Positions 49,734 to 64,000 of a stretch of DNA of 64,000 bases are shown here, one piece after another. The DNA is taken from assembly GCF_010499265.1 (NCBI RefSeq), contig NZ_JAAGSC010000040.1, positions 62,001 through 126,000 of the forward strand, read 5' to 3'. Made by a program: the position numbers and the translations under genes. Position 1 is the first letter of the stretch. The number at the start of each line of letters is the position of its first letter. This DNA comes from Wenzhouxiangella limi (GTDB lineage: Bacteria; Pseudomonadota; Gammaproteobacteria; Xanthomonadales; Wenzhouxiangellaceae). A model generated the notes under the pieces. It was not told the origin of the DNA and searched no databases. It saw only the letters and a program-made list of their open reading frames with translations.

Positions 49734-51350
49734 CTACGGCGTTGCCTGGTGGTTGCCGAAGTCCTCGTGCAGCCAGTCGCGCAGCCGGTCCATGCCGGCA
49801 GCGGGCCGCGAGTGGTCGGGAACCAGTCCGTCGACGAATCCTCGCTGGCGGAAAGGCTTCAATAGGCGGGGGTTTTTGGAGATCACGTGCACGGGGACGG
49901 CATCGCTGGCCTCATGGCCGGTGATCAGGGTGGCTGGCTGGTGATCGCCGAGGAGAATCATCAAGGTGTTGTCGTCAACAAAGCGGGCGGCGAAGTCGAG
50001 GCTGACGTGGATGGAATAGTCGACGCTGCGGGCAAAATGATCGCGGACCCGCTCGATGTCCTGCCACAGCTCCTGGGGCGTTTGCCCGGCATCACGCCAG
50101 CGCTCGAAGACCGCGCCGTCGGCGATCCCGTCCCAGTCGGGCAGCACATCTAGGATCGGCGTCCAGGGCGCGTGGCTGCTGATCAGGGCGATCTGGGCAA
50201 AAAGCGGTTGCGCCGCCTGCGGCCGCAGCGTGTCCTGGAAGCGGTGGAGGGTGTACTGATCGGGCATGGTCACCCAGTTCAGCGCGGGACCGGCGTAGTC
50301 AAGGTCGCGGGCGGCAAAAATCCGGTCGAAGCCCAGCTGTCGGCCCTCCGGCCACGGCATGATGATGGCCGGCATGACCGCCATGGTCTGGTGCCCGGTG
50401 GCGCGGAAATCGTCGATCAGGCTGTTGTGGTGGGACTCCAGCAGCAGCCGGTACCAGAGCTGGTTGTCGATCCAGCGGCCGCTGAGTGCTGTGGCGTGCG
50501 ACAGCCAGGACTGACCGCCGCGGATCGGAGATTCCAGCAGCCCGCTGACCACCGAAACCCCGGCCTGTTCGAGTTCTCCCTGCATGCGTTCCAGGGTGGG
50601 CGTGACGAGCTGGCGGTAGCGGTCGAGCTCGAAGATCGTGGCACCATACGACTCGATGAAGATCATCAGCACGTCGGTGTCGGCCAGGCCGCTGAGCGCT
50701 TCCGCCGGTCGCGGCATGTCCGGCGCTGCATCGACGAAGGCGATCCGTGCCCGATGGGTAGAGCGCACCTGTTCGAGCTGGAAGCTGAGCGTATCCCATA
50801 CCGGTGTGCGCGCCACCGGCATCAGGCGCAGGCCCTGGGTTTCCATGGCGCCCAACAGCAGGGCCGAAAAGGCCACCGCCCCGGCGAAGATCCTGTCCGG
50901 GCGCCGGTGGGCGGCGCTGATGGCCAGCACACGGGCAACCACCCAGGCCAGCACAAAGAGAAGCAAAAGAACGGCCGCAAAAATTAATACCGCGGCGACC
51001 CTGCCCAGATTGCCGTCGAGCAGGTGGAAGCTGGCGCTGAGCAGGTTGATGTCGAAATACAGATTGAGCGGACGACTGAGCACCTGGTGAATGGCGCCGT
51101 CGCTGAGGCCCAGAATCACGGCCGTCATGACCACGACAACGGCCAGCCAGCGCAGCAGGCGCGTCGCTCGCCGGTCGGGCAGCAGCGCAAAGCCGGCGGC
51201 CAGCAGCCAGGCTTCCCACGCCAGCCAGCGTCCATCGCCGAAACCGAAGCGCAGCCACAGCGGCGCAATCAGCAGCACGTTGAGCAGCAATCCCGCGCCC
51301 AGCAGGAGCAGCAACGGACGCCGCCTGGCAGCGGTGATTGAGGATTTCAC
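49734..51350 (-). CDS. Sulfatase-fold membrane transferase (LtaS/OpgB-like)
   Basis: A 538-residue protein (GTG 51350; an open frame continues 33 codons upstream). Four or five membrane helices (first PLLLLLGAGLLLNVLLIAPL) occupy about 1-165 and a periplasmic alkaline-phosphatase-superfamily domain the rest. Metal-site elements are DVLMIFIESYG, the nucleophile region SPIRGGQSWLSHATAL, ISSHAPWTP and MILLGDHQPA. This layout is that of LtaS, phosphoethanolamine transferases and OpgB, which transfers phosphoglycerol to periplasmic glucans. Divergent opgG starts 14 bp away, so OpgB-like function is the best guess, though similarity alone does not decide the donor. Confidence 0.8.
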   Translation of the reverse strand: MKSSITAARRRPLLLLLGAGLLLNVLLIAPLWLRFGFGDGRWLAWEAWLLAAGFALLPDRRATRLLRWLAVVVVMTAVILGLSDGAIHQVLSRPLNLYFDINLLSASFHLLDGNLGRVAAVLIFAAVLLLLFVLAWVVARVLAISAAHRRPDRIFAGAVAFSALLLGAMETQGLRLMPVARTPVWDTLSFQLEQVRSTHRARIAFVDAAPDMPRPAEALSGLADTDVLMIFIESYGATIFELDRYRQLVTPTLERMQGELEQAGVSVVSGLLESPIRGGQSWLSHATALSGRWIDNQLWYRLLLESHHNSLIDDFRATGHQTMAVMPAIIMPWPEGRQLGFDRIFAARDLDYAGPALNWVTMPDQYTLHRFQDTLRPQAAQPLFAQIALISSHAPWTPILDVLPDWDGIADGAVFERWRDAGQTPQELWQDIERVRDHFARSVDYSIHVSLDFAARFVDDNTLMILLGDHQPATLITGHEASDAVPVHVISKNPRLLKPFRQRGFVDGLVPDHSRPAAGMDRLRDWLHEDFGNHQATP

Positions 51351-51364
51351 GGCGGTGAACGACC

Positions 51365-52954
51365 ATGGAACAAATGGAAGCTGCTTATCGTGACACATCC
51401 TCGTCCGCGCGCCGCGTGAATCGGGGCGCGCGCTTGTTTGGTTGGGCACTGGTGGCGGGTCTGATGACGTATGCCGTCTCCACCCAGGCGCTGGAACGGT
51501 CCGACGTCGCTGACAAGGCTCAAGCCCTGGCCGCGCGCGACTGGCAGCCGCCGGATCCGCCGGCCCCGGCTCTGGCGGCTCTGGATTACGACCAGTACCG
51601 TGCGATTCGTTTCGATCCGGACCGCGCGCTGTGGCCGCAGAACGAAGGATTCCGCGTCCAGTTCTTCCATCCCGGTTTCCTGTTCAACGAAACCGTGCGT
51701 ATTCATGAGATCGACGAAGGCGCTGTTGATGACGTGCCGTTCGACCCCAAGCGTTTTCGCTTTGATCGGCCGCTGGAGGGTCCGCCGGTGGCCAGTGCGG
51801 CGGGCTATGCCGGTTTTAGGGTCCACTATCCGCTGAACCGGCCCGAGCGGCATGACGAATTCCTCGTGTTTCTCGGGGCTTCGTATTTCCGCCTCATCGG
51901 GTCAGGACAGGTCTACGGTCTGTCCGCCCGCGGTCTGGCTTTGAACAGCGGTGGCAGCGGGGCGGAAGAGTTTCCGGTGTTTCGCGAGTTCTGGCTGCAG
52001 CGACCGGAGCCGGGTCAAGAACGTTTGCGCCTGCTGGCCCTGCTGGACAGCCCCTCGGTGACCGGCGCGTTCGCTTTCGAAGTGGAGCCCGGAGACCCGA
52101 CGTCCATGGTTGTCGACGCACAGTTTTTTGCCCGTCGCGATCTGGTTCGGCCCGGTATCGCTGCACTGACCAGTATGTTCAAGCACGGCGATACCGGGCC
52201 GGTTTTAGTCGACGACTTTCGACCTCGCGTGCACGACTCCGACGGATTGCTGGTGCGCAGCAGTCGTGGAGAAGCCCAATGGCGGCCGTTGTCGAACCGG
52301 GCCCGGGTTCGACTGAGCGGGTTTGAAGACGATGCCGCGCCGGAGGGTTTCGGGCTGCTGCAGCGGCGGCGCCAGTTCGAGGATTTCCAGGACCTGGAAG
52401 CACGCTATGATTTACGACCCGGCCTATGGGTTGAGCCGCTGGCCGGTGACTGGGGCGCGGGGCGAGTGGAACTGGTCGAGATTCCGACCGAAGACGAGAC
52501 CTTCGACAATATCGTTGCCTTCTGGGTACCCGATGCGCCGATTCTGGCCGGTGAGTCTCGTCGTTATCGCTATCGGCTGACGACGGTAGATGGGTTCAAG
52601 TCAAACGAGGGCCTGGCCCAGGTGAGGGCCACGCATACGGGCCGAGCCGGAATACCGGGGCAGGAGAACTGGCGCGATCGTTCTCGACGCCGCTTCGTGA
52701 TCGAGTTTGACGGGCCCGCGCTTGCTGATGCCGAAGGCGTGGAACTGAGCGCCCGGACCCGCGGCGGCCGCTTGCTCGAGACGCGATTGGAGCATCTGCC
52801 CGAAACCCGCGCTATACGAGCCGTCGTTGCCCTGGACCCCGACGAGGAGGGCGGACCCTCCGATTTGCGCGTTTTCCTGCACGTCGACGAGCGTCCGGTG
52901 TCGGAAGTGTGGAGTTATGTGTGGTATCCGGATGAGATTGATCGACAACTTTGA
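51365..52954 (+). CDS. opgG: Periplasmic glucan biosynthesis protein OpgG
   Basis: A 529-residue exported protein needed for osmoregulated periplasmic glucan synthesis. The signal sequence (about 15-40) is preceded by a basic stretch SARRVNRGARLFGW. Family landmarks are PALAALDYDQYRAIRFDPDR, FRVQFFHPGFLFNETV, ASYFRLIGSGQVYGLSARGL, FPVFREFWLQRP, the MVVDAQFFAR motif, TSMFKHGDTG and VHDSDGLLVRSS, and the Ig-like C-terminal domain. Starts at 51365 and 51374 are both possible. Its promoter must lie inside the divergent transferase gene. It overlaps opgH by 23 bp, indicating coupled expression. Confidence 0.94.
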   Translation: MEQMEAAYRDTSSSARRVNRGARLFGWALVAGLMTYAVSTQALERSDVADKAQALAARDWQPPDPPAPALAALDYDQYRAIRFDPDRALWPQNEGFRVQFFHPGFLFNETVRIHEIDEGAVDDVPFDPKRFRFDRPLEGPPVASAAGYAGFRVHYPLNRPERHDEFLVFLGASYFRLIGSGQVYGLSARGLALNSGGSGAEEFPVFREFWLQRPEPGQERLRLLALLDSPSVTGAFAFEVEPGDPTSMVVDAQFFARRDLVRPGIAALTSMFKHGDTGPVLVDDFRPRVHDSDGLLVRSSRGEAQWRPLSNRARVRLSGFEDDAAPEGFGLLQRRRQFEDFQDLEARYDLRPGLWVEPLAGDWGAGRVELVEIPTEDETFDNIVAFWVPDAPILAGESRRYRYRLTTVDGFKSNEGLAQVRATHTGRAGIPGQENWRDRSRRRFVIEFDGPALADAEGVELSARTRGGRLLETRLEHLPETRAIRAVVALDPDEEGGPSDLRVFLHVDERPVSEVWSYVWYPDEIDRQL

Positions 52955-54794
52955 TCTGCGCCGACGGCTGTTTCTGGCGCTGGTGCTGTGCACCGGCCTG
53001 CTGGGTCTGGTGGGCCTGTTCCAGGCCCTGGCTGCGGCGGGGGTGGACCTTTTCGCGCGCATTCCGCTGGCGCTGCTGTTCGCCCTGACCTTCACCTGGA
53101 TCGCGGTTTCGTTCTGGCACGCGGTGATCGGCTTTGTCCTGGGCGTGCTTCGACGAAACCCGTTCAGCCTGCGCCCCGAGCCCGGACCGTCTGCCTCGGC
53201 TCCTGCGCCGGGTGCCCACCGTACGGCGCTGGTCGTGCCCATCTACAACGAAGATCCGGCCGCGGTCTGCTCCGGTATTGCGGCGATGGCGGCCTCGCTG
53301 CTGGCCTCCGGCCGGTCCCAGGGCTTCGAGTTTTTCGTGTTGAGCGACACCTGGGACGCCAACATTCTGGCCGCCGAGCAGACCGCGGTGGCCGATCTTC
53401 AGGGCAAGCTCGGCGAGCGTCTGCCGCTGCGCTATCGCCATCGCAGCAACAACGTGGGCCGAAAAGCGGGCAACCTGGCCGATTTTTGCCGCCGCTGGGG
53501 GCGCTGCTACCAGTTCATGCTCGTCCTCGATGCCGACAGCCGCATGGATGCGGCCAGCATGCTGCGGCTGGTCGCCACCATGCAGAGCGATCCCCGCATC
53601 GGTCTGATCCAGACCGTGCCCGTTCCGGCCGGCCAGCACAGCCTGTTCGCGCGCCTGATGCAGTTTGCCGCGGCGGTCTATTCACCCATGCTGGCCACCG
53701 GCCAGGCGTTCTGGCAGGGTCGAACGGCCAACTACTGGGGCCACAACGCCCTGATCCGGATTCCGGCGTTCATGGCCAGCTGCGGCCTGCCCGATCTGCC
53801 GGGCAAGCCACCGCTGGGCGGTGAAATCCTCAGCCACGATTTCGTCGAGTCCGCCCTGCTGGTTCGTGGCGGCTGGTCGGTGGTGCTGGATACCGCGCCA
53901 CTGGCCAGTCACGAGGAAGTGCCGGGCAACCTGGTCGACTACCTGGTTCGCGATCGTCGCTGGATGCAGGGCAACCTGCAGCATCTGCGCCTGCTGCGGC
54001 TGCCCGGGCTGCATCCGGCCAGTCGCGTGCACTTTCTGTTCGGGGCCTGTGCTTTCTTGTCGTCGATCGCCTGGCTGGGTCTGATCGTTCTGGGCCTTGT
54101 TACCATGCTGCAGCACCCGGCCGCGGCGGTCGAGCTCGCGGCCGGGGCGCAGACCTGGAGCCTGACCCTGCTGACGGCGACGCTTGGCCTGTTGTTCGGG
54201 CCGCGCCTGCTGGGCCTGCTGCTGGCCTCGCTGCAGCGGCCGCAGGCCTTCGGCGGTCGCGTCCGCCTGCTGGCCAGCGGTGTGCTCGAGGCCGTCGCCG
54301 GGGTCCTGCTGGCGCCGGTAATGATGCTGTTTCACGTGCGTTTCGCGCTGGAAATCGTGTCGGGTTCCAGCGTCGGATGGTTATCGCCGCCGCGGGGGGA
54401 TCGTGGCCTGACCTTTTTCGAAGCCCTGACCCGAACCGGCCTCGCCAGCGTGTTCGGCCTAGCCTGGATGGTTCTTGCCGCGATCCAGACGCCGCAGTAT
54501 CTGTGGTGGATGAGCCCGGTCTGGCTGGGTTTGCTGCTGGCCCCGCTGCTGACCTGGGCCTCGAGCAGCCGCCGCCTCGGCGAGGGGCTGCAGGCCGCCG
54601 GCTTGCTGCTGACGCCGGCCGAGCTGGGCCCGGCCCCGGCGCTTGCGCGCGGCCCGGTCGAGGCCCAGCGCACCCGCCTGGGACGGACACCCGCCGCGCC
54701 GCCACCGGAGTGCCCGGGTCGCATGCCGATACAGTGCCTGGGTCACGCTGTCCCGGACCGCCACAAGACCCGCTACGGGAGGATCGGTGTCTGA
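52932..54794 (+). CDS. opgH: Periplasmic glucan glucosyltransferase OpgH
   Basis: The membrane glycosyltransferase (family GT2) that builds the beta-glucan backbone from UDP-glucose. The ATG at 52932 gives 620 aa. Two helices at the N-terminus, then the catalytic domain: TALVVPIYNEDPAAV, LDADSRMDAASML (D,D pair), LSHDFVESALLVRGG (third acidic motif ED/HD) and RDRRWMQGNLQH (Q-x-x-R-W). Four or more C-terminal helices follow. It is shorter than E. coli OpgH (N- and C-terminal cytosolic extensions reduced) but normal for xanthomonads. It overlaps the following fkbM-type gene by 8 bp. Confidence 0.94.
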   Translation: MRLIDNFDLRRRLFLALVLCTGLLGLVGLFQALAAAGVDLFARIPLALLFALTFTWIAVSFWHAVIGFVLGVLRRNPFSLRPEPGPSASAPAPGAHRTALVVPIYNEDPAAVCSGIAAMAASLLASGRSQGFEFFVLSDTWDANILAAEQTAVADLQGKLGERLPLRYRHRSNNVGRKAGNLADFCRRWGRCYQFMLVLDADSRMDAASMLRLVATMQSDPRIGLIQTVPVPAGQHSLFARLMQFAAAVYSPMLATGQAFWQGRTANYWGHNALIRIPAFMASCGLPDLPGKPPLGGEILSHDFVESALLVRGGWSVVLDTAPLASHEEVPGNLVDYLVRDRRWMQGNLQHLRLLRLPGLHPASRVHFLFGACAFLSSIAWLGLIVLGLVTMLQHPAAAVELAAGAQTWSLTLLTATLGLLFGPRLLGLLLASLQRPQAFGGRVRLLASGVLEAVAGVLLAPVMMLFHVRFALEIVSGSSVGWLSPPRGDRGLTFFEALTRTGLASVFGLAWMVLAAIQTPQYLWWMSPVWLGLLLAPLLTWASSSRRLGEGLQAAGLLLTPAELGPAPALARGPVEAQRTRLGRTPAAPPPECPGRMPIQCLGHAVPDRHKTRYGRIGV

Positions 54795-55581
54795 GCGCCT
54801 GAAGAATGGCCTGGGTCTGCTGCGCTCGCTGTTGATCTACCGGCGTCCGGGTCGGCAGCGCGCCTTGAGGAGGTTTTACCGGGTCTTTGTCCAGCCCGGT
54901 GACCGGGTGTTCGATGTGGGCGCGCACCTGGGCGACCGAACGACGGCTTTCGCCGCCCTGGGCGCGCGCGTGCTGGCGCTGGAGCCCCAGCCTCGCCTGT
55001 TTGCCTGGCTGCAGCGCCTGGTCGGGCGGCACGAGGCGGTGACCTGTTTGCCGCTCGCCGTCGGCTCTGAGCCCGGCACCCTGGAGCTGGCCACCAGCCG
55101 GACCAACCCAACCGTGGCCAGCCTGTCGCCGCAGTGGCGCGCGCGCGTGGTCCAGGCGCAGCCGGGCTTTGCCGGCGTGAACTGGGATAGCCGGCTACGC
55201 GTCGAGGTCACCACCCTGGATCACCTGATCGCGCATTACGGCGAACCGGTCTTTTGCAAGATCGACGTCGAGGGCTTCGAGCCGGAGGTGCTGGCCGGCC
55301 TGTCGCGCCCCTTGGCCGCGCTGTCGGTGGAGTTCGTGGCGGGCGCGTTGGACCAGGCCCTGGCCTGCGTGGAACGGCTCGAGCAGCTCGGCGCTTATCG
55401 CTACCAGGTCGTTGAGGGCGAGCGCCGGGAGTTTTTCCTGGCCGAGTGGATGGATGCCGAAGCCATACGAGCCTGGCTCGAAGCCGGCGCCGGGGGCCTG
55501 GCCTCCGGCGACCTATACGCACGAAGGTCGGTTAACGGGGGCGATGGCGGTGCCAAGAACCACGCCCATCGTTTAGTGTAG
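54787..55581 (+). CDS. FkbM-family methyltransferase
   Basis: A 264-residue SAM-dependent O-methyltransferase starting with GTG 54787, preceded by a GGGAGG site, and overlapping opgH by 8 bp. It has VFDVGAHLGDRTTAFAALGA as SAM motif I, LALEPQPRLFAWL, and the FkbM signature VFCKIDVEGFEPEVLAGL. The enzyme would methylate a hydroxyl of a sugar or lipid-linked precursor; which one is not shown. Its coupling to opgH suggests either glucan decoration or membership of the biosynthetic block that begins with the next gene, 28 bp downstream. Confidence 0.88.
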   Translation: MSERLKNGLGLLRSLLIYRRPGRQRALRRFYRVFVQPGDRVFDVGAHLGDRTTAFAALGARVLALEPQPRLFAWLQRLVGRHEAVTCLPLAVGSEPGTLELATSRTNPTVASLSPQWRARVVQAQPGFAGVNWDSRLRVEVTTLDHLIAHYGEPVFCKIDVEGFEPEVLAGLSRPLAALSVEFVAGALDQALACVERLEQLGAYRYQVVEGERREFFLAEWMDAEAIRAWLEAGAGGLASGDLYARRSVNGGDGGAKNHAHRLV

Positions 55582-55609
55582 AAGAACATTGCTTGAAGGC
55601 GGGCCCCTG

Positions 55610-56395
55610 ATGATCCATCGCTGGCAACATCTGACTTCCCCGGAGCTGGCCGAGCTCGCCGGAGCCGATGCGCTGGCGGTGATGGTCCTGGGGGCAATCG
55701 AGCAGCATGGCCCGCACCTGCCGCTGTCGACCGACCTGGACATCGCCACCGGCCTGCTGGAGCGGGCGCTGGCGCAGCTCGATGACAACATCGATGCCTT
55801 TGTGCTGCCCTCCCTGGCGCTCGGGGCCAGCGATGAGCATGCCGGTTTTGTCGGCACGCTGTCGCTGTCGGCCGGCCAGATGAGCCGCCAGCTCGAGCGC
55901 ATCGGCGCGGCCGTGGCCGCCGCCGGCGTTCGCCGCCTGGTGCTGGTCAACGGGCACGGCGGCAACATCGGCTGGCTGGGGCCGGCGGCGCTGGAGCTGC
56001 GGCGGCGATACGAGCTGCTGGTGGTCAAGGCCAGCTACATGGCCTTCCGCGCTCCCGAGCATCTGCTCGGTGCTGCGGAACTGCGCCTGGGGTTGCACGG
56101 CGGACAGGCCGAGACCGCCATGATGATGCACCTGCACCGCGAGCGGGTGCGGACCGAGAAACTTGAGTCTTTCGCTTCCTGTGCCTCGGATCGCCCGTCT
56201 GATGCCGCGCTGGGCCCGGAAGCCGACGCCGCCTGGGCCTGGCTGGCCGAGGATCTCAACCCGGCCGGCGTTGTCGGCGATGCAGCGGCCGCCACCCCGG
56301 AGCTGGGGCGCCGGCTGGTCGACTTTTACGCCGCCAGGCTGGCTCAGGTGATGCGCGAGGCTGTCGCCACCGGCCTTGGCAGCTGGCGCGGTTGA
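55610..56395 (+). CDS. Creatininase/ArfB-family amidohydrolase
   Basis: A 261-residue metal-dependent hydrolase (ATG 55610; an in-frame TTG lies seven codons upstream). The metal-binding hallmark is GAIEQHGPHLPLSTDLDIA with Glu31, His33 and Asp42, followed by GHGGN in LVNGHGGNIGWLGPA and HGGQAETAMMMHL. The family includes creatininase, ArfB (which deformylates the formamidopyrimidine made from GTP in archaeal flavin and F420 synthesis) and MftE. Being followed by ribA and a RibD-type reductase argues for an ArfB-like reaction here; that is inference. Confidence 0.87.
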   Translation: MIHRWQHLTSPELAELAGADALAVMVLGAIEQHGPHLPLSTDLDIATGLLERALAQLDDNIDAFVLPSLALGASDEHAGFVGTLSLSAGQMSRQLERIGAAVAAAGVRRLVLVNGHGGNIGWLGPAALELRRRYELLVVKASYMAFRAPEHLLGAAELRLGLHGGQAETAMMMHLHRERVRTEKLESFASCASDRPSDAALGPEADAAWAWLAEDLNPAGVVGDAAAATPELGRRLVDFYAARLAQVMREAVATGLGSWRG

Positions 56396-56440
56396 CGCTC
56401 GATTGCTCGCGTTCGGCGAGCTTTGGCTGAGACGGCGCGT

Positions 56441-57595
56441 CTACTTGGCCGCGTCCAGGACCTCTTCCAGCAGGTGTCCGGAGCGGCTGGCCTTGGCGGT
56501 CAGGTAGCGGCGATTCTCGTCGGTGACCTGGCCATAGAGCTTTTCGCGGCCGGCGACCTCGATACCGCCCTGGGCCAGTGCCCGCAGCTTGGAGGGATTG
56601 TTGGTCAGCAGTCGAACTTTCCGGATGTTCAGGGCTGCGAGCATGTCGACGGCGACGCAGTAATGACGCTCGTCCTCGCCAAATCCCAGGATCTGGTCGG
56701 CGTCGACCGTATCGTGGCCCTGATCCTGCAGCGTGTAGGCGCGCAGCTTGTTGGCCAGTCCGATGCCGCGGCCCTCCTGGGCCAGGTAGAGCAGCACGCC
56801 GCCACCCATTTCCTCGATTGTGCGCACGCCCGAGCGCAGCTGCTCGCCGCAGTCGCAGCGCAGACTGCCGAACAGGTCGCCGGTCAGGCAAGCCGAGTGC
56901 ATTCGCACGGGTACCGCGTCGGGCCACTGTTCGGGGTGCCCGATGACCACGGCGACGTGTTCGCGCAGGCCGTCCGGTTCCCGAAAAAGCACGAAGCGCG
57001 ATTCGGCCACGTCGTTCAGCGGCACACGCGCCTCGCTGACGCGCTTGAGCAGACCTGCGGCCAGTTCGAAGCAGTGTTCGGCAGCGCGCGCCGGCACCGT
57101 CAGCAGCTCGCCCCGATCGATCTGGGTCTGAATCGCCCGGCGCTGCCGGTCGTTGAGGCGCACCGTCAGCGCCGCCGGGATCAGCAGGGCGCGGCGCATC
57201 AGGGCGAGCGCGGCGCGCTCGGTCACCGTGGCCGGCTGCGGCTCGGCGAACAGCTCGCGGTCCAGCGGCGCATCCGCGCAGGCGGCCTGCAGCACGATGC
57301 CGGCGCTGACCGCCGACGCGGTCGGGCGCAACGGCAGGCTGGCGGCTTCGGCGCGGGTGTTTACGCCCAGGCTGCGAAGGCGGTGGCGGGTGATCACCAG
57401 ACGTGCCGAACGGTGGCCGGAAAAGCCGGCGAGTTCCTCATCCGGCAGCCCTTCGACTGGCTGCACCAGCACGCTGGGGGCGCGCGCCGTTTCAGATCCG
57501 GTATCGTCGTCGATGACCACGGCGACGCCGCGACGAAGATCGAAGATGGCCCGTTCGGTCTGATGCATGTGGATCGGATCGTTCTTTGGAGACAT
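56441..57595 (-). CDS. ribA: GTP cyclohydrolase II with degenerate RibB-like N-terminal domain
   Basis: Opens the imidazole ring of GTP to a diaminopyrimidine. The 384-residue protein has a C-terminal cyclohydrolase II domain (about 195-384): zinc Cys in SACLTGDLFGSLRCDCGEQL, LYLAQEGRGIGLANKLRAY, DTVDADQILGFGEDERHY and LLTNNPSK. The first 190 residues align in pattern with 3,4-dihydroxybutanone-phosphate synthase (AIFDLRRGVAVVIDDD), but the catalytic DRENEGD is replaced by TGSETAR, so that half should be inactive. SACLTGD also replaces the usual SECLTGD. It may serve the adjacent cluster rather than bulk riboflavin synthesis. Divergent from the next gene by 40 bp. Confidence 0.88.
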   Translation of the reverse strand: MSPKNDPIHMHQTERAIFDLRRGVAVVIDDDTGSETARAPSVLVQPVEGLPDEELAGFSGHRSARLVITRHRLRSLGVNTRAEAASLPLRPTASAVSAGIVLQAACADAPLDRELFAEPQPATVTERAALALMRRALLIPAALTVRLNDRQRRAIQTQIDRGELLTVPARAAEHCFELAAGLLKRVSEARVPLNDVAESRFVLFREPDGLREHVAVVIGHPEQWPDAVPVRMHSACLTGDLFGSLRCDCGEQLRSGVRTIEEMGGGVLLYLAQEGRGIGLANKLRAYTLQDQGHDTVDADQILGFGEDERHYCVAVDMLAALNIRKVRLLTNNPSKLRALAQGGIEVAGREKLYGQVTDENRRYLTAKASRSGHLLEEVLDAAK

Positions 57596-57635
57596 ATTTA
57601 CGGTAGTGTGACAGCCGCGGTCGAATTGTGAATTC

Positions 57636-58472
57636 ATGATGGCATATTCATCGGCATGGGGCCTGCTGCTGGGGCTGCGCGGGCTGGACTGGTCGGCGCT
57701 GAAAGTCCACCGCAGCGAGATCCTGGGTTCCGATATTGAAATCGCTGCCGGGGGCGAGTGGCGCGTCGACCGCCCTTTGCCTGGCCATGAGGCCGCCCTG
57801 CTCGACGTGTTGCTGCCGCTGGTGACCCGTCCCGGCGACCTTGTCATCGGCCAGCTCGGGCAGAGCCTGGACGGCCGCATCGCCACCGAAAGCGGGGATT
57901 CCTGGTACATCAACGGCGAGATCGCGCGGACTCACCTGCATCGTCTGCGCGCCCTGGTCGATGCAGTGCTGGTCGGTGCGGGCACGGCGGCCGAGGACCG
58001 GCCGAATTTAACCGTGCGTCACGTCGATGGCCCCGATCCGGTGGCGGTGATTCTCGACCCGCGCGGGCGGGTTGATCCCGTCGGGCCGCTGTTTGATCGC
58101 GCTGCAGGCCAGCCCCCGGTGGTGCATCTGGTCGGGCCGGATACCGATCTGCCGGCCGCGCCCTTCGGCGTCGAGCGCCAGGTCGTGGCCTGCGGCAAGG
58201 ACGGCCAGGTAGCGCCCCAGGCGGTCATCCGGGCGCTGGCCGAGCGCGGACTGCGCCGGGTGCTGATCGAGGGCGGCGGGGTCACGGTCTCGCGCTTTGT
58301 CCACGCCGACGCGTTGCACCACCTGCATTTGCTGATTGCGCCACTGATCATCGGCTCGGGACGACCCGGGCTGGTGCTGCCGCCCATCGAGCGCCTGAGC
58401 GCGGCGCGCCGCCCGCCCATGCGCAGTTTTCCGCTGGGCGATGAGCTACTGGTCGACGTGCGCCTGGCCTGA
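57636..58472 (+). CDS. RibD C-terminal-type reductase, stand-alone
   Basis: A 278-residue DHFR-fold NADPH reductase. From residue 70 it follows RibD reductase closely: IGQLGQSLDGRIATESGDSW, HRLRALVDAVLVGAGTAAED, PNLTVR and VLIEGGGVTVSRFV. There is no deaminase domain with its zinc HAE/CxxC motifs; the first 70 residues are unrelated to it. In flavin synthesis this domain reduces the ribosyl side chain of a pyrimidine to ribityl. Shares a 40-bp divergent gap with ribA, which must hold both promoters or parts of them. Its end overlaps the convergent membrane protein gene by 27 bp. Confidence 0.88.
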   Translation: MMAYSSAWGLLLGLRGLDWSALKVHRSEILGSDIEIAAGGEWRVDRPLPGHEAALLDVLLPLVTRPGDLVIGQLGQSLDGRIATESGDSWYINGEIARTHLHRLRALVDAVLVGAGTAAEDRPNLTVRHVDGPDPVAVILDPRGRVDPVGPLFDRAAGQPPVVHLVGPDTDLPAAPFGVERQVVACGKDGQVAPQAVIRALAERGLRRVLIEGGGVTVSRFVHADALHHLHLLIAPLIIGSGRPGLVLPPIERLSAARRPPMRSFPLGDELLVDVRLA

Positions 58473-59357
58473 CGACGGGGCCAGCAGCACCAGCACGCCG
58501 GGCAGGCTGGCCAGCAGAACCAGCACACCGTAGGTAATCGAGACAGCCACGCCCTGCTCGGGCGGCAGGCCGCTGATCAGCCAGACCGCACCGGCCGCGC
58601 CCTCGCGCAAGCCCCAGCCGGCCACGGACACCGGGACCAGCATCGCCAGCAGCGCCGGCAGCGCCATCATCATCAGCTGCACCAGCGGCAGTTCAACGCC
58701 AATGCCGCGGGCGCCGGCAGCAAAAACCAGCAGGTAGCTGACGACAATAGCGATCGAACTGGCCAGCTGCACCGGCCAGGCCCGGCGGGCCAGCAGGGCC
58801 CGGCGCAGGTCGGGGCCGATCTGCGCGATCCAGCCGGCCCGATCCCGCAGTCGCCGCGCCACCAGGGCGCCGAATACGCCGATCAACGCCAGGCCCAGAC
58901 CGGCCGTCAGCAGCGCCGGCGCGAAGCCTTCGCGCCAGGGCGGGTAAAGCGTGACCACCAGCGCGGCCAGTGCCACGACCACCAGCTGGCCGGAGGCGCG
59001 TTCCAGGATGACAGCGCGCCAGGCCACGCCGGTCTGGCCTGAGCGGCGGGCGTGGCGCTGCGCGCGCCAGGCATCGCCAACCACGCCGCCGGGCAGAACC
59101 TGGTTGATGAACCCGGCCAGGTAGTAGTCGGCCAGCGCCCGGCCCGGCGCCAGATCCAGCCCCAGCCGATGCGCGGTGAAGCGCCAGCGCCAGGCCGACA
59201 GCGCCGTCTGGGCCAGGCTGACCAGCAGGGCAAAGATGAGCCAGCCGGGATCCAGGGCCCCGACCTCGGCGGCGATCCGGGCCGGATCCAGCCACAGCGC
59301 CAGCCCGGCCAGCAGGACCAGGCTGATCAGCCAGCGCGCGCCCGGGCCCAGCTTCAC
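58446..59357 (-). CDS. UPF0104/LPG-synthase-transmembrane-region family protein
   Basis: A 303-residue polytopic membrane protein with about eight helices (WLISLVLLAGLALWLDP, LIFALLVSLAQTALSAWRW, VVVALAALVVTLYPPW, LLTAGLGLALIGVFGALVA, ASSIAIVVSYLLVFAAG, TYGVLVLLASLPGVLVLLA). Motifs NQVLPGGVVGDAWR and WGLREGAAG are those of the family that contains the flippase half of MprF and archaeal AglD. The GTG start overlaps the methyltransferase stop (GTGA). A role moving a lipid-linked intermediate across the inner membrane is inferred from family and context. Confidence 0.87.
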   Translation of the reverse strand: MKLGPGARWLISLVLLAGLALWLDPARIAAEVGALDPGWLIFALLVSLAQTALSAWRWRFTAHRLGLDLAPGRALADYYLAGFINQVLPGGVVGDAWRAQRHARRSGQTGVAWRAVILERASGQLVVVALAALVVTLYPPWREGFAPALLTAGLGLALIGVFGALVARRLRDRAGWIAQIGPDLRRALLARRAWPVQLASSIAIVVSYLLVFAAGARGIGVELPLVQLMMMALPALLAMLVPVSVAGWGLREGAAGAVWLISGLPPEQGVAVSITYGVLVLLASLPGVLVLLAPSSGQAHVDQ

Positions 59358-60202
59358 GAGGTCGGCAGGGCCAGCAGGTCGACGTGGCCGACGCGCAGAC
59401 CGAGCTCGCCGGCGACCAGCGCGCCGGACCTGCGCTCGTGCCATTGCTCGATTCGCTTGGCTTCCTGCGCTGCCTGCTCAACGGCCGCATCGCGCCAGCC
59501 CTGCAGCAGCGGCGGGCCCAGGCGCAAGGTGAGCGCATCACCTGCGGCGAGTAGCCAGTCGCTGGGCCGGGTATCGACGTCGAAGCGATGGTCAGCAAAG
59601 ACCCGGGGCAGGACCCGGGCCGCCGCCGGACCCAGCGCGGCGCCCAACCCCTTGTCGCTGCACTGATGCCGGTTGAACTGCTGCCTGACGAATCGATCGT
59701 CTGGATCGCTGATGCTGCGCTGCCGGATGTCCAGAAAACACCAGTCGCCGGTCACGCTCAGGGCCAGCAGCGCGCCACACCGGTGCTTGCGGCAAGCTTG
59801 CGCCAGGCGCGTCAGCCAGTCCTCGGACACCAGGTCGAACAAGGCCGAAGCGGTGACCAGGTCGTGCTCGGCGAGAAATGCCAGATCGCTGTCGGCCAGG
59901 TCGGTGTGGCGGGTCTCGATGTCCAGTCCAGGCGCGGGCGGGCGCGCTGCGCTGCGGTCCTGGAGCCAGTCGAGCAGGGCCGGATCGCGATCGACCATCA
60001 GCCAGCGCTGCCGGCCCGACAGCCGGGGTGCGAGCCAGCGCAGGTTGTTGCCGTGGCCGCAGCCCAGGTCGACGATGCGCAGGGTGGGGCGGTCGCTGAG
60101 CGCATGCTCAAGTTTCTCGGCCAGCGCCGCGCTGCGCGCGGCGTGGTCGGCTGGCTCGCGCAGGCTCAGCCAGTCGGCGGCGAAGGTCTCCTGCGCGCTC
60201 AT
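59354..60202 (-). CDS. Class I SAM-dependent methyltransferase
   Basis: A 282-residue soluble protein starting at the ATG of [12 protein letters not shown], which overlaps the glycosyltransferase stop by 4 bp. The SAM site is IVDLGCGHGNNLRWLAPRL, with the acidic LMVDRDPALLDWL and the motif IV region EHDLVTASALFDLVSEDW. The C-terminal half contains FVRQQFNRHQCSDKGLG, which I do not recognise from well-studied methyltransferases. It is tightly embedded in the five-gene minus-strand run from the dehydrogenase to the UPF0104 gene, so it should modify the same molecule. Confidence 0.85.
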   Translation of the reverse strand: MSAQETFAADWLSLREPADHAARSAALAEKLEHALSDRPTLRIVDLGCGHGNNLRWLAPRLSGRQRWLMVDRDPALLDWLQDRSAARPPAPGLDIETRHTDLADSDLAFLAEHDLVTASALFDLVSEDWLTRLAQACRKHRCGALLALSVTGDWCFLDIRQRSISDPDDRFVRQQFNRHQCSDKGLGAALGPAAARVLPRVFADHRFDVDTRPSDWLLAAGDALTLRLGPPLLQGWRDAAVEQAAQEAKRIEQWHERRSGALVAGELGLRVGHVDLLALPTS

Positions 60203-61269
60203 GCCGATGTCAGCGCCTCGGCCAGTCGGCGAGCGCTGCCGGTCCAGCCTGGAAGCTGGTCGCGGCGCTCGATGGCCGCTTCGGTGCATCGCCGGCGCAG
60301 GCTCTCGTCGCTCAGCCAGCGCGCTAGCGCCCGGGCCAGCGCATCGGCGTCGCCGGGCGGCACCCGCAGTCCGGTGTCCTCGGGCACGGTGTCGGCCAGC
60401 GCGCCGCCGCTGGTGGCGATGACGGGCAGGCCGCGGGCGAGGGCCTCGGTGACGACCATGCCGTAGCCCTCGTAGTGCGACGGCAGCACGCAGACCGAAG
60501 CCCAGCGGTAGTCGCCCTCCAGCTCGGCGGCGTCGCGCTCGCCGCTCACTTCCACCCGCCCGTCCAGGCCCAGCCGCGCGATCTGCTCGCGCACGGCAGC
60601 GGCAAAGTCTGGCGCGCGCGCATCCGAGCCGCTCAGGCGGCAGCGCCAGGGCAGGTGGCGCAAGCTGTCCAGCGCAGCGACCAGAAGGTCCTGGCCCTTG
60701 CGCGGGGTCAGGCTGGCGACGCACAGCAGGGTTTCGGTTTCCGGCTCGCGGCCCGTTTGCCTGCGCGCCAGGGCAGCCGGCGCCAGCTGGGCGCGCTCGA
60801 CCCCGGGTTCGATCACGATCGCTTGCTTTTGCGTCAGGCCCAGGGCCTGCAGGCGTCGGGCGGTGAACGCGCTGGTGACGACGATCGCATCGCACAAGGC
60901 CAGGGCCTGGCGCTCCGAGCTCAGCAGGCGCTCGCGCTGGGCATCGTTCAGCCCGGTCTCGTCGGCCAGCGGATGGTGGACCAGGCCGACCAGCTTCAGT
61001 CTGTCGGCCTGGGTGGCAACGGCCTCGGGCACCGCGCCCAGGGCGAGGCCGTCGATCATCACCCGCGACTGCTCGGGCAGCGCGGCAAGGGACTCGGCCA
61101 TGCTGGCCCGGGCGGCGGTATCGGCCAGCGGAAAACGGCCGCTCAGCCCGGTCACCGTCACCGTCCAGCCGAGGGCGCGCAGTTGTTCAACGATGCGGGC
61201 GTCGAACAGGTAGCCGCCGGTGCGCTGGCCGGGATCGCCCGGCACAATCAAGTGCAGGGCCTCGCTCAA
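60199..61269 (-). CDS. GT4-family glycosyltransferase
   Basis: A 356-residue GT-B-fold enzyme. The N-terminal domain has [18 protein letters not shown] and [10 protein letters not shown]; the C-terminal Rossmann domain shows [17 protein letters not shown] and the donor-binding [19 protein letters not shown], with the E-x(7)-E retaining GT4 motif (EGYGMVVTE). Nucleotide-sugar donor and acceptor are unknown. It overlaps the neighbouring genes by 4 bp on each side (ATGA), so translation is coupled. Confidence 0.9.
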
Positions 61270-61664
61270 AGCGCTCCCTCGTAGCTGGCCCAGGCCAGGT
61301 GCGATTCCTTGAGGCTGACTTTCAGTCCGCTCAGTCCCTCGGCGGCCGGCCCCAGCCGACCTGCGCGCACGGCCTCGGCCAGACGGTCGAAGACCACCCG
61401 GGCCATGAACTCGGTGGTGGTGTTGCGGCCGCGAAAAGCCTCGATCTCGTCGAGGTTGCGGTAGTTGAAGTCGGCCAGGATTTCGCCCAGCACTTTTCCG
61501 GCCAGGCCGATGTCGACGATCAGGTCATCCTCATCGAGCTCGGAGCGGCGAAAGCTGGCGGCGACCACGTAGGTCGCCCCGTGCATCTTCTGCGCCGGCC
61601 CAAAGATCTCGCCGCGGAAGCTGTGGGCGATCATGAAATGGTCGCGAACGGTCAATTCGTACAT
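61266..61664 (-). CDS. 6-pyruvoyl-tetrahydropterin synthase/QueD homologue lacking catalytic residues
   Basis: A 132-residue T-fold protein. Aligned by eye with E. coli QueD it keeps the fold landmarks ([37 protein letters not shown], and the pterin-anchoring Glu in [10 protein letters not shown]). The catalytic Cys four residues before the HGH motif is Ala24, HGHxY has become HGATY so the third zinc His is lost, and the Asp-His dyad of LDHxYLND is Asn-Tyr in FNYRNLDE. It probably still binds a pterin or pyrimidine but not by QueD chemistry. Overlaps the glycosyltransferase by 4 bp and lies 25 bp after the dehydrogenase end. Confidence 0.87.
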
Positions 61665-61689
61665 GGGTGTTTCTCCGATTGCGGGATGT

Positions 61690-62664
61690 TCAGGAATAGA
61701 CGATGCGATGGCACAGCACCTCGCCGCTGCCTTCGGCCAGGCGCGGCATCAGCTGCGGCAACTCGTCGAAGCGGCTCTGGCCGCTGATCAGGGTATCCAG
61801 GCGCGGATCGTCGAGCAGGGCCAGGGCCAGGGCCAGGCGGCGGCGGTGGTCCCAGCGTGGGCGGCGCGCCGGCGGCAGCTGGCCGACCTGGCTGGAGCGC
61901 AGGGTCAGGCGGCGGGCGTGGAAGGCCTCGCCGAACGGGGCGCTGGGTTGTGCGGTGCCGTACCAGCTCGCTTCGACCACGCAGGCCTCGGTGCCGGCGC
62001 AGCCCAGCGCGGTTGCCAGTCCGGCTTCACTGGCGCTGGTGTGGATGACCACGTCCTGATCTTCAGGCGCCTGCGCGGGTTGGGCAAAGTGCGCGCCCAG
62101 CAGGTCGGCCAGCGCCGCGCGTTCGGGCTGGAGATCGACCAGCGTGACGCGGGTGCCGGGAATCCGGGCGGCCAGCCAGGCGACCAGGCAGCCGACCACG
62201 CCGCCGCCGATGACGCCGACCCGGTCGCCCGGTCCAACGCCGGCATCCCAGACCACATTGAGCGCCGTTTCGGCGTTGGCGGCCAGGACGGCGCGCTCCG
62301 GCGGGACCTCATCGGGCAGCGGCAGGACGGCGCTGGCCGGGACCACGTAGCGGTCCTGGTGCGGAAACAGGCAAAACACCGGCTGGCCCTGCAGCTGTGC
62401 GGGCCCGTGTTCGACTCGGCCGACGCTGGCGTAGCCGTACTTGACCGGGCCGGGGAAGTCGCCTTCCTGGAACGGGGCGCGCATGGCCGCATACTGACTC
62501 GGCGGCACCTGGCCCTGGAAGACCAGGGCCTCGGTGCCGCGGCTGATGCCGCTGCACAAGGCGCGCACGCGCACCTCGCTGGCGTCAGGCTCGATCAGTT
62601 CCTGCTCGAAGATTTCGCCCTGGCCGGGCTCGCGGACCCAGAAGGCCCTCGCGGTGAGCGTCAT
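61690..62664 (-). CDS. MDR-family (zinc-type alcohol dehydrogenase-like) oxidoreductase
   Basis: A 324-residue medium-chain dehydrogenase, start at the ATG of [10 protein letters not shown]. The N-terminal GroES-like domain contains [17 protein letters not shown]; the Rossmann part has [19 protein letters not shown] and [13 protein letters not shown]. Typical catalytic-zinc ligands are only partly recognisable (the CSGISRGTE form lacks the usual G-H-E motif, although HQDRYV is present), and the structural-zinc Cys cluster is absent, so it may be zinc-independent, as in bacteriochlorophyllide- or quinone-reductase-like members. First gene of the five-gene minus-strand run. Confidence 0.85.
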
Positions 62665-62762
62665 GAACTTAGGCTTCCCAGAGTTGTTGGCGTCATGGTC
62701 GAGGATACGCGGTGAGGCCGACGTTGACGGAAATTTACGCGCCGGATGGCATTGTGAAGATA

Positions 62763-63512
62763 ATGTCCACGATGACGCATACAAGCTGCGATTCTGAGAA
62801 TCGGCCAGCGCGCGCGGGCGGCGGCGTCTGGCTGCTGCCGATCACGGTGCCCGCCCTGGGGCTGGCCGCACTGGCGCTGGTCGGCGCGGATCCGCACACC
62901 CTGCTGAGCGCCGTCGCACTGGCTGCGTTGCTTGCGGCTGCGATTCGTCATCTGGCCAGCCGCAGCGGCGCGCGTCTGGGCCGCGCCAGCCAGGTGACGC
63001 TGGCCCGCGCCGGACTGGTCGCCGTGCTGGCCGCGGCGCTGTTCGAACCTGCGCTGTACCGTGAGCAGGGCTGGACCATCGCCGGTCTGGCCCTGCTGGT
63101 CCTGGCGCTGGACGGCGTCGACGGCTGGCTGGCGCGGCGCTTCGACGAGTGCAGCGAGTTCGGTGCGCGCTTCGACATGGAGGTCGATGCCGGCTTGATC
63201 ATGGTGCTGTGCCTGGGCGCGATGGCCGCCGACCTGGCCGGTCCCTGGGTCCTGCTGATCGGCCTGATGCGCTACGGATTCTTGCTGGCGGCCAGCGTCT
63301 GGCCGTGGTTGAGCGCCCCGCTGCCGGGGAGTTTCCGGCGCAAGCTGGTGTGCGTGTGGCAGGTCAGCGCGCTGGTGCTGGTCATAACGCCGCTGGTCGG
63401 TTCGCCCACGGCCAGTATTTTGCTGCTCTCGGCGCTGGTCGGACTGGTGCTGTCCTTTGGCCTCGATGTCGCCTGGCTTAAGCGGCACCAGGCCTCCCCT
63501 TTAGCCACCTGA
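62763..63512 (+). CDS. CDP-alcohol phosphatidyltransferase
   Basis: A 249-residue integral membrane enzyme (ATG 62763; ATG 62772 also possible) that joins a CDP-linked lipid to an alcohol with loss of CMP. The full family motif D-G-x2-A-R-x8-G-x3-D-x3-D is present in DGVDGWLARRFDECSEFGAR followed by FDMEVD. Six hydrophobic helices surround it. The acceptor alcohol cannot be read from sequence; phosphatidylglycerol-phosphate and phosphatidylserine synthases are normally encoded elsewhere, so this copy is probably specialised. Divergent from the dehydrogenase by about 100 bp and 9 bp before yceI. Confidence 0.88.
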   Translation: MSTMTHTSCDSENRPARAGGGVWLLPITVPALGLAALALVGADPHTLLSAVALAALLAAAIRHLASRSGARLGRASQVTLARAGLVAVLAAALFEPALYREQGWTIAGLALLVLALDGVDGWLARRFDECSEFGARFDMEVDAGLIMVLCLGAMAADLAGPWVLLIGLMRYGFLLAASVWPWLSAPLPGSFRRKLVCVWQVSALVLVITPLVGSPTASILLLSALVGLVLSFGLDVAWLKRHQASPLAT

Positions 63513-63521
63513 GGAATCATC

Positions 63522-64000
63522 ATGAAAGCTTTCCTGATTGCCGCACTGGTCACGCTGGTCGGTTTGAGTGCGGCGCAGGCCGAGCCGCGCGAGTTCGTCA
63601 TCGATGATGAACATTTTTCCATCGGTTTCCTGATCAAACACGTCGGCTACGCCGATCAGCTGGGCCAGTTCCTGGAAGCCAGCGGGCGCTTCGTCTGGGA
63701 CGAGGAGGCCAACGAACTGCACAGCGGTGAGGTGGTGGTCGAGGCCGCCAGCGTCTTCACCAACCACCGCGAGCGCGATCAGCACCTGCGCAGCGATGAT
63801 TTCCTGCACGCCGGCCGCTACGACCAGGTCCGTTTCGAAGCGACCCGCTGGGAGCCGGAAGCGGACAATCGCGGGACCCTGCACGGCGAGCTGACCCTGC
63901 TCGGACAGACCCACCCGGTGGCGCTGGAGGTGACCATCAACCAGCGCGCGGTCTACCCCTTCGGACACGAACGCTATACCGTGGGCATGTCGGCGCGGAC
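63522..64000 (+). CDS. YceI-family periplasmic lipid-binding protein, 3' end outside window
   Basis: The first 159 codons are present, from an ATG with a GAGGA site nine bases after the previous stop. The signal peptide MKAFLIAALVTLVGLSAAQA is followed by the YceI beta-barrel: FVIDDEHFSIGFLIKHVGYA, GRFVWDEEANEL, VVVEAASVFTNHRERDQHLR, SDDFLHAGRYDQVRFEATR and GELTLLGQTHPVALEVTIN. YceI proteins bind long polyprenyl chains in a lipocalin-like pocket. Co-transcription with the CDP-alcohol phosphatidyltransferase suggests it carries a lipid made by the cluster. Confidence 0.93.
   Translation, partial: MKAFLIAALVTLVGLSAAQAEPREFVIDDEHFSIGFLIKHVGYADQLGQFLEASGRFVWDEEANELHSGEVVVEAASVFTNHRERDQHLRSDDFLHAGRYDQVRFEATRWEPEADNRGTLHGELTLLGQTHPVALEVTINQRAVYPFGHERYTVGMSAR

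Follow-up and report, generated by a model that had tools for sequence, protein, structure and literature searches.

We analysed a stretch of 64,000 nucleotides of Wenzhouxiangella limi (referred to as the window), which corresponds to positions 62001-126000 of contig NZ_JAAGSC010000040.1 (C32) in a 3.35-Mb assembly that is 99.6% complete. It contains a cluster of about a dozen genes, common to very different bacteria, in which GTP cyclohydrolase II (RibA), a PTPS homologue, sugar- and methyl-transferring enzymes and membrane-related proteins are combined. An earlier note on this DNA had described most of these genes and had proposed a lipid-linked pyrimidine or pterin conjugate as their product. 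Matches to Pfam and NCBIfam models placed all the genes it had named where it had put them, together with a few more (window coordinates, strand, description and best match with its expectation value, E):

49734..51449, minus strand: predicted LtaS/EptA-like lipid-headgroup phosphotransferase, a membrane protein with a C-terminal alkaline-phosphatase/sulfatase-superfamily domain (PF00884, 3e-11)
51365..52954, plus strand: MdoG/OpgG periplasmic glucan protein, a neighbour of uncertain membership (PF04349, 2e-173; at 18 of the 80 loci compared below)
52827..54794, plus strand: GT2-family glycosyltransferase, MdoH-like by position, a neighbour of uncertain membership (PF13632, 8e-19; at 16 of the 80 loci)
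54787..55581, plus strand: FkbM-family methyltransferase (TIGR01444, 7e-27; Pfam FkbM methyltransferase, 3e-15)
55589..56395, plus strand: creatininase-family hydrolase, candidate FAPy formamidase with a BrbF/ArfB-like reaction (PF02633, 2e-62)
56441..57574, minus strand: GTP cyclohydrolase II (RibA) with an N-terminal domain resembling a decayed RibB (PF00925, 3e-55)
57636..58472, plus strand: stand-alone RibD reductase domain (RibD_C; pyrimidine ribosyl reductase), no deaminase (PF01872, 4e-33)
58446..59444, minus strand: UPF0104/LPG_synthase_TM membrane protein, candidate flippase (PF03706, 8e-38)
59354..60202, minus strand: SAM-dependent methyltransferase, MT (PF13649, Methyltransf_25, 5e-10)
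60199..61269, minus strand: GT4 glycosyltransferase (PF00534, 2e-31)
61266..61664, minus strand: PTPS-IV subfamily protein with FGPAQ and no CxxxHGH (PF01242, 4e-23)
61690..62664, minus strand: MDR dehydrogenase, weakly BchC-like (TIGR01202, 2e-12, below the cut-off)
62712..63512, plus strand: CDP-alcohol phosphatidyltransferase (PF01066, 2e-14)
63522..64000, extending beyond the window, plus strand: YceI-family lipocalin-like protein (PF04264, 3e-37 for the full gene, L003)

The five minus-strand genes from UPF0104 to MDR are as tightly packed as the note had described: the GT4 gene overlaps both the MT gene and the PTPS gene by 4 bp, and 25 bp separate PTPS from MDR. The open frames of MT and UPF0104 overlap by 91 bp, the start of the FkbM gene is uncertain (its open frame runs from 54643), and the MDR protein matched Pfam ADH_zinc_N weakly (4e-5, below the cut-off). 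At the 3' side the YceI gene ends at the equivalent of 64103, 103 bp beyond the window, and is followed on the opposite strand by a gene for an HrpB-like helicase (named by eye), so the boundary drawn there before holds. The 5' boundary had been set too tightly, as the gene at 49734-51449, for a membrane enzyme whose fold is of the LtaS/EptA class, also belongs to the system; this member is new here. Between it and FkbM lie the MdoG and MdoH-like genes (51365-54794), an arrangement likewise seen in many Halomonas loci. In view of their low counts these two were rejected as core members; a periplasmic glucan may be the acceptor in the pathway proposed below.

We found the cluster conserved across wide taxonomic distances. 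When 84,980 species genomes were scanned with a PTPS alignment, at least 589 relatives were confirmed, of which the 80 best-scoring loci were kept, so distant relatives are missing from the counts; contig ends shorten some of these loci, and at least two (L046 and L047) appear to belong to genomes of the closer set compared below. The 80 loci, taken from genomes other than that of the window, span Pseudomonadota, Actinomycetota, Gemmatimonadota and Acidobacteriota, and the partners of PTPS were MDR (80 loci), GT4 (79), MT (77), the CDP-alcohol transferase (72), UPF0104 (61), RibD_C (51), creatininase (47), RibA (43), YceI (22), FkbM (21), MdoG (18) and the MdoH-like gene (16). The control, the unrelated HrpB gene past YceI in the window's genome, was found at one of the 80 loci, in the same genus as the window. 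MDR-PTPS-GT4-MT had identical order and strand at 75 loci. In the order to which the window belongs, a PTPS search of 151 genomes gave 17 hits, 15 of which are true relatives (the window's own included); the two others (L036 and L037) have no further cluster genes in common. When the 9-20 kb around the 14 remaining relatives were compared by tblastn (several loci reach a contig edge), UPF0104, MT, GT4 and PTPS were recovered at 14/14, MDR, the CDP-alcohol transferase and RibD_C at 12/14, RibA and YceI at 11/14, creatininase at 10/14 and FkbM at 9/14. In a tree of MDR proteins the actinobacterial rows, 24 in number, group together with good support, which suggests that the cluster is old in the Actinomycetota. 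The MDR of one contig labelled Rhodovulum (L055) nests within the Halomonadaceae in that tree, probably a binning error.

Three genomes of ~1.0-1.1 Mb, with 29-31% GC at the locus, carry eight genes in window order (YceI, CDP-alcohol transferase, MDR, PTPS, GT4, MT, UPF0104 and RibD_C), and no RibA, creatininase, FkbM or phosphotransferase was found at the locus. The retention of these eight in such small genomes argues that they are the core; across the 80 loci YceI is accessory (22/80). The earlier note had taken the genes for one functional unit, a view that would suffer if they were not kept together in other genomes. The PTPS-seeded comparison at the 80 loci found them kept together, and genome-level co-occurrence and gene fusions (see below) back the same view, so that a shared pathway is well supported.

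Some neighbours were seen at part of the loci. In one ~1-Mb genome (L130) PRA-CH, MOSC, EamA, ThiF and MoaA genes come after the cluster (at about 13.6-18 kb), and L131 and L132 have frames of similar size at that place. L060 and six other loci (Marinobacter, one Thioalkalivibrio) have a GalU-type uridylyltransferase family (F20, named from L060 alone) by the cluster, hinting at UDP-glucose as the donor for GT4. Loci L074, L075, L077 and L088 (Amycolatopsis, Nocardiopsis) have an inositol-monophosphatase-family gene (named from L074 alone), the product of which is a candidate phosphatase for the RibD_C product.

By its sequence, the PTPS homologue of the window is a member of the PTPS-IV subfamily of COG0720, which is marked by FGPAQ and was described with 561 sequences and with PF00925 and PF01872 as neighbours (cluster-node 62, AGeNNT, PMC5445326). 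FGPAQ was found in the window protein and at 79 of the 80 loci, and FGPAR at one locus. The motifs of PTPS-I (QueD), PTPS-II and PTPS-III are CxxxHGH, CxxxxxHGH and ExxHGH, respectively (PMC5041015). At all 80 loci HGH is replaced by HGA, and the PTPS motif has no cysteine in 15 aligned sequences, for which reasons QueD and biopterin synthase were rejected as names for this protein. Database names for the PTPS homologue would have the system make coenzyme F420 or queuosine-type products, and an unpublished role of PTPS-IV in archaeal F420 synthesis is referred to in PMC5041015. We found no match to CofH (FO synthase) at E 0.001 in the window's genome and rejected F420 biosynthesis on that account; queuosine is opposed by HGA and the lack of the CxxxHGH cysteine (no search for queuosine genes near the cluster was made), and products of either kind thus seem very improbable. 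The nearest solved structure is that of SCO6650 of Streptomyces coelicolor (3d7j), which itself matches the PTPS profile with E 5.5e-60. According to the authors of that structure SCO6650 reportedly lacks the zinc and the catalytic triad and does not carry out the PTPS reaction. Unlinked to the cluster contig, the window's genome also has one 439-codon open frame in which three PTPS domains follow one another, a triple fusion that is unusual (C33:2474-3490).

Further results concern the origin of the presumed heterocycle. In the RibA of the window the zinc cysteines (CLTGD...RCDC) and the catalytic stretch QEGRGIGL are intact, as expected of a GTP cyclohydrolase II. The riboflavin operon of the genome, on contig C34 (genes named by eye), encodes a RibBA protein (PF00926 and PF00925) of which the RibA half lacks the zinc cysteines; this RibBX-type protein (L004:5235-6353) has an intact RibB. 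With the cysteines lost there, no intact GTP cyclohydrolase II was found in the genome besides the RibA of the window, and riboflavin synthesis may depend on this copy. RibA could thus be the housekeeping riboflavin enzyme, present here by chance beside a separate glycolipid cluster, and the earlier note had named just this, a riboflavin pathway elsewhere that lacks its own ribA, as an outcome that would speak against its proposal. The first half of that outcome, a sole intact copy, was found; the second does not fit, since RibA follows the cluster. Of the 43 family genomes, 22 have PTPS-IV and 21 do not, and RibA of the intact type occurs in 20 of the former and 6 of the latter (Fisher 3e-5). 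An intact RibA was first defined by E 1e-50 (25 of 43 genomes, 5/21 negatives, Fisher 9e-6), and G072 joined as the sixth negative genome once the residues of 12 further hits, weaker or odd ones, had been inspected.

In the two positives without intact RibA, the cluster contig stops before the place of RibA (G119) or the genome is 63% complete (G165). Among the negatives with intact RibA, G114 and G072 each carry a different RibA protein (identity 48% and 38-40%, respectively, cysteines present), the copy in G129 is close to the end of its contig, and three genomes are incomplete (G152, G157 and G162, 65-84%). The cysteines are missing from ten RibA-domain copies of nine cluster-negative genomes in which there is no other copy, and from the second copy in G072; all of these match RibBX. 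Seven cluster-negative genomes that are 95-99% complete (G079, G099, G051, G058, G065, G020 and G109) have one RibA-domain hit each, a RibBX-type copy without zinc cysteines, which argues against a housekeeping enzyme that happens to lie here; so does the co-occurrence of RibA and creatininase at clusters in several phyla (creatininase at 40 of 43 RibA-positive loci versus 7 of 37 RibA-negative loci), and RibD_C and PTPS-IV likewise point to a GTP-derived heterocycle. A mere housekeeping role was rejected, as RibA tracks both the cluster and creatininase, and we consider it improbable. As for the N-terminal half of the window's RibA, no RibB remnant was recognised by Pfam, and hhalign gave a probability of only 22%. 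In structural comparison the model of the whole protein matched the two-domain RibBA 4i14 best and RibBX 6mnz fourth, with TM-scores of 0.33-0.35 over both domains, so that the placement of the domains differs; on this model the half looks like a decayed RibB.

The co-occurrence at the 80 loci supports the start of the pathway as it had been proposed before, i.e. GTP cyclohydrolase II followed by the creatininase-family protein and RibD_C. The creatininase motifs EQHG..LP..TD, HGGN and ET, which we take to be a metal site, are conserved in 53 sequences, as expected of this family; against the ArfB model the window protein scored 20 bits (cut-off 180). A protein annotated as creatinine amidohydrolase, BrbF of S. 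meliloti, frees formate from the product of GTP cyclohydrolase and is a FAPy formamidase (PMC9478397). The residue at the discriminating position of RibA is related to the presence of creatininase: among the 43 RibA proteins all 17 with a residue other than Tyr adjoin creatininase, and the three without creatininase all have Tyr. In six Streptomyces cluster RibA proteins whose starts are comparable this residue is Met, at residue 119-122 (exactly 120 in two), and L111 and L112 also have Met there, in longer open frames. In SCO6655 of S. coelicolor, Met at position 120 is said (Spoonamore, 2006) to halt the reaction at FAPy. These observations fit a sequential action of RibA and creatininase, at least in actinobacteria. 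For RibD_C the nearest solved structures are 2hxv and 6p8c (2,5-diamino-6-ribosylamino-pyrimidinone-phosphate reductase). No Pfam family for the deaminase of RibD was found in any cluster protein, and NCBIfam RibD models match the reductase half only. RibD_C is present in most proteobacterial clusters, and in two proteobacterial genomes where the stretch analysed does not include it, a copy with 44-50% identity lies elsewhere.

The cluster is also tied to a predicted lipid-headgroup phosphotransferase. The model of the 49734-51449 protein (pLDDT 83.8) has seven N-terminal helices followed by an alkaline-phosphatase-like domain, and E266, S314, D502 and H503 are invariant in 14 sequences. Membrane helices together with such a domain and conserved acidic, Ser/Thr and Asp-His residues are what we take to characterise the LtaS/EptA type. 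Among the 20 best Foldseek hits, 17 are LtaP, LtaS, EptA, EptC, MCR-1 and GacH, and the other three are PbgA and two hits to a superfamily member without a name; a sequence search of the PDB gave no match at E 0.001. Arylsulfatases have the formylglycine motif C/S-x-P-x-R. The conserved serine of the window protein lies in G.SWL without PxR (by eye) and the fold favours headgroup phosphotransferases, and an arylsulfatase was therefore rejected.

Relatives of this predicted phosphotransferase lie within ~10 kb of PTPS-IV at 16 of the 80 loci (3 in actinobacteria). Of the 14 order-level cluster loci 8 were compared in this respect, and 4 of them have such a relative. The phosphotransferase profile was built from members linked to PTPS-IV, so that unlinked finds lie outside that definition, and in a screen of 369 genomes of the class no more than three candidates were scored for each genome. 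The phosphotransferase was found in 12 of 17 PTPS-IV-positive versus 1 of 352 negative genomes (Fisher 7e-18), or, counted by family, in 7 of 9 PTPS-IV families, the Fisher values taking no account of kinship. In the 12 shared genomes it lies on a different contig from PTPS-IV in eight, which in draft genomes is no proof of distance, and 1.9 Mb away in one. In 20 more PTPS-IV genomes without a linked copy (16 of them actinobacterial; no PTPS-negative control) it was found elsewhere in 15. With the window protein as query, the CDP-alcohol transferase was found in 16 of the 17 PTPS-IV-positive versus 1 of the 352 negative genomes (Fisher 7e-26); the seventeenth (G433) has a copy that misses the threshold of this search and scores 117 bits against the cluster profile. 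Its motif DG.DG..AR........GARFDME.DA is conserved in 63 sequences, and the window sequence fits DxxDGxxARx8GxxxDxxxD, which we take to be the motif of CDP-alcohol phosphotransferases.

Gene fusions connect the members further. In a Burkholderiales bin (L106) the CDP-alcohol transferase and the phosphotransferase are fused in a single open frame, the phosphotransferase half of which falls below the Pfam sulfatase model and is identified by the phosphotransferase profile (502 bits). The CDP-alcohol transferase is fused to FkbM in a single open frame in L141, and GT4 to MT in L144 and L119. In Actinophytocola (L113) MT was not found in the cluster, and an MT lies beside the phosphotransferase elsewhere in the genome (L146); FkbM adjoins the phosphotransferase in L136, L139, L140 and L154. 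Among the genes around unlinked phosphotransferase loci, few of which were run against Pfam, no common acceptor gene was found. From the modelled fold and the association with the CDP-alcohol transferase, the LtaS/EptA-like enzyme would transfer a phospho-headgroup from a lipid to an acceptor.

These data also bear on two other readings of the membrane genes. If the product were a diffusible pigment, cofactor or signal, the membrane genes would merely export it, for which UPF0104 and YceI could serve and with which the three ~1-Mb genomes, where the phosphotransferase was not found, would agree. CDP-alcohol transferases, however, link a phospho-group to an alcohol and do not export, and the fusions to FkbM (L141) and to the phosphotransferase (L106) likewise make simple export hard to credit. 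The main rival has the heterocycle as acceptor rather than as headgroup: two products would meet late, a soluble pyrimidine or pterin that bears sugar and methyl groups on the one hand and an ordinary anionic phospholipid, made by the CDP-alcohol transferase, on the other, the headgroup of which (e.g. glycerol phosphate) would be put by the phosphotransferase onto the heterocycle or onto a periplasmic glucan. In line with this, the CDP-alcohol transferase matches pgsA (6e-7; 30 bits versus a cut-off of 109) and that of Streptomyces matches archaetidylinositol-phosphate synthase (2e-5, far below the cut-off), glucan genes of the MdoG and MdoH type adjoin part of the clusters (18 and 16 of the 80 loci, as given above), and in G456 and G247 the CDP-alcohol transferase lies beside or within ~5 kb of the phosphotransferase, away from PTPS. 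The ~1-Mb genomes, on the other hand, keep the CDP-alcohol transferase with the heterocycle genes, with no phosphotransferase found, and we regard a late meeting of two products as rather unlikely.

The reading that we prefer is that the cluster, together with a second small locus in other genomes, encodes one pathway to a lipid-borne GTP-derived heterocycle, and we see it as evenly poised between right and wrong. Starting from the observed domains, co-inheritance, linkages and fusions, we infer the substrates, the order of reactions, the flipping and the acceptor as follows. GTP cyclohydrolase II would open GTP to 2,5-diamino-6-ribosylamino-pyrimidinone 5'-phosphate, either directly or via FAPy, in which case the formyl compound would be deformylated by the creatininase-family hydrolase. 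RibD_C would then reduce the ribosyl to a ribityl group, and as the cluster has no deaminase the 2-amino group would be retained. The MDR dehydrogenase may oxidise a hydroxyl of the side chain. The ring may be bound and reshaped by PTPS-IV, a protein of the T-fold that lacks the usual motif cysteine and the second HGH histidine. Oxidation at C2' would permit closure to a pterin: if RibD_C reduces the ribosyl carbon and MDR oxidises the hydroxyl next to it, the result might be the ketone that GTP cyclohydrolase I also makes, which could close on the 5-amino group to a dihydropterin, and such a pterin route without GTP cyclohydrolase I would explain a PTPS fold without the classical activity. 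GT4 would add a sugar and MT one or more methyl groups, the CDP-alcohol transferase would couple the product to a phospholipid, with FkbM as a methylating enzyme, UPF0104 would flip the lipid-linked product and YceI may carry it. Finally, the LtaS/EptA-like enzyme would transfer the phospho-headgroup from the lipid to a periplasmic or surface acceptor. The combination of CDP-alcohol transferase, UPF0104 and LtaS/EptA-like enzyme is best understood if a headgroup is built on a phospholipid, flipped and then transferred; attachment to lipid, flipping and periplasmic carriage, as well as the product, are thus putative steps.

Several observations weigh against this reading. No gene of the cluster has a known substrate or product. 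Twenty-three Tyr-type RibA proteins also adjoin creatininase, and Tyr, as in the window, presumably leads directly to the deformylated product (from the work on SCO6655), which leaves the role of creatininase in gammaproteobacteria unclear. Most actinobacterial clusters lack the cluster-type RibD_C, and in 10 actinobacterial genomes searched the RibD-like hits were only 27-37% identical. The phosphotransferase was not found in 5 of the 17 PTPS-IV genomes (the three of ~1 Mb and two of one family), so the last step is not universal; one genome (G520, 85% complete) has it without PTPS-IV, and another (G427) has the CDP-alcohol transferase without PTPS-IV. The TM-scores of the 20 best Foldseek hits are 0.27-0.55, with arylsulfatases and a phosphonate hydrolase from rank 21, so that the superfamily is set and the substrate is not, and flippase is a family guess for UPF0104.

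We take the cluster for a biosynthetic one that branches from riboflavin precursors, with a real chance that its class of product is new. The neighbourhood of PTPS-IV with GTP cyclohydrolase and RibD_C is known already (PMC5445326). In the open-licence literature we found no paper on the whole cluster, no pathway or product for PTPS-IV, and nothing on the lipid-side genes, the link to the phosphotransferase, the fusions, the minimal set or the RibA/creatininase pattern. The earlier note, which knew of no described pathway with this set, had overlooked the published neighbourhood, as well as the identity of PTPS-IV and the phosphotransferase; its reading was borne out in part. More speculatively, the cluster could possibly stand for a widespread, unrecognised class of bacterial lipids, phospholipids with a GTP-derived headgroup (a pterin or a ribityl-diaminopyrimidine) to which sugar and methyl groups are attached. 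Their synthesis would need no GTP cyclohydrolase I; they would be flipped, and many lineages would have an LtaS/EptA-like enzyme dedicated to passing the headgroup on to a polymer of the periplasm or the surface. If so, four bacterial phyla would share a GTP-derived class of envelope chemistry. In halophilic and marine gammaproteobacteria, streptomycetes and the streamlined genomes of ~1 Mb it would decorate the envelope with a redox-active or light-absorbing compound, and riboflavin annotation would be questionable in genomes in which the cluster RibA is the only intact GTP cyclohydrolase II. For the SCO6650 structure, deposited as uncharacterised, and the FGPAQ subfamily with its hundreds of members we found no demonstrated function; their link to the full gene set, the fusions and a headgroup phosphotransferase suggests looking in lipid and envelope extracts, beyond cytosolic cofactors.

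Among known systems, the pathways to toxoflavin, roseoflavin and F420 likewise divert intermediates of the riboflavin pathway; to our knowledge none of them has PTPS-IV, a CDP-alcohol transferase or an LtaS-like enzyme. The cluster RibA of Streptomyces resembles SCO6655 in having Met at the position said to make that enzyme form FAPy, whereas the window type has Tyr and an additional N-terminal domain. The C34 protein is like RibBX, or split RibBA (6mnz), in combining RibB with a decayed RibA; the window protein in contrast keeps RibA with RibB apparently lost and looks like its mirror image. The window creatininase is, like BrbF and ArfB, a creatininase-family protein with the metal-site motifs (PMC9478397), but it lies in this cluster and not in a riboflavin operon, and its predicted activity on FAPy is likened to theirs by family only. 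The likeness to the published PTPS-IV/SCO6650 group consists of FGPAQ and the adjoining PF00925 and PF01872; what is given of that group in PMC5445326 names these two neighbours only, calls PF00925 'GTP cyclohydrolase I/FolE2' and, in the parts that concern it, mentions no pathway or product. The phosphotransferase, finally, shares membrane helices and a domain of the alkaline-phosphatase fold with LtaS, LtaP, EptA, MCR-1 and GacH, its best fold hits, but with 11-16% identity in the listed hits it forms a subfamily of its own that is tied to PTPS-IV.

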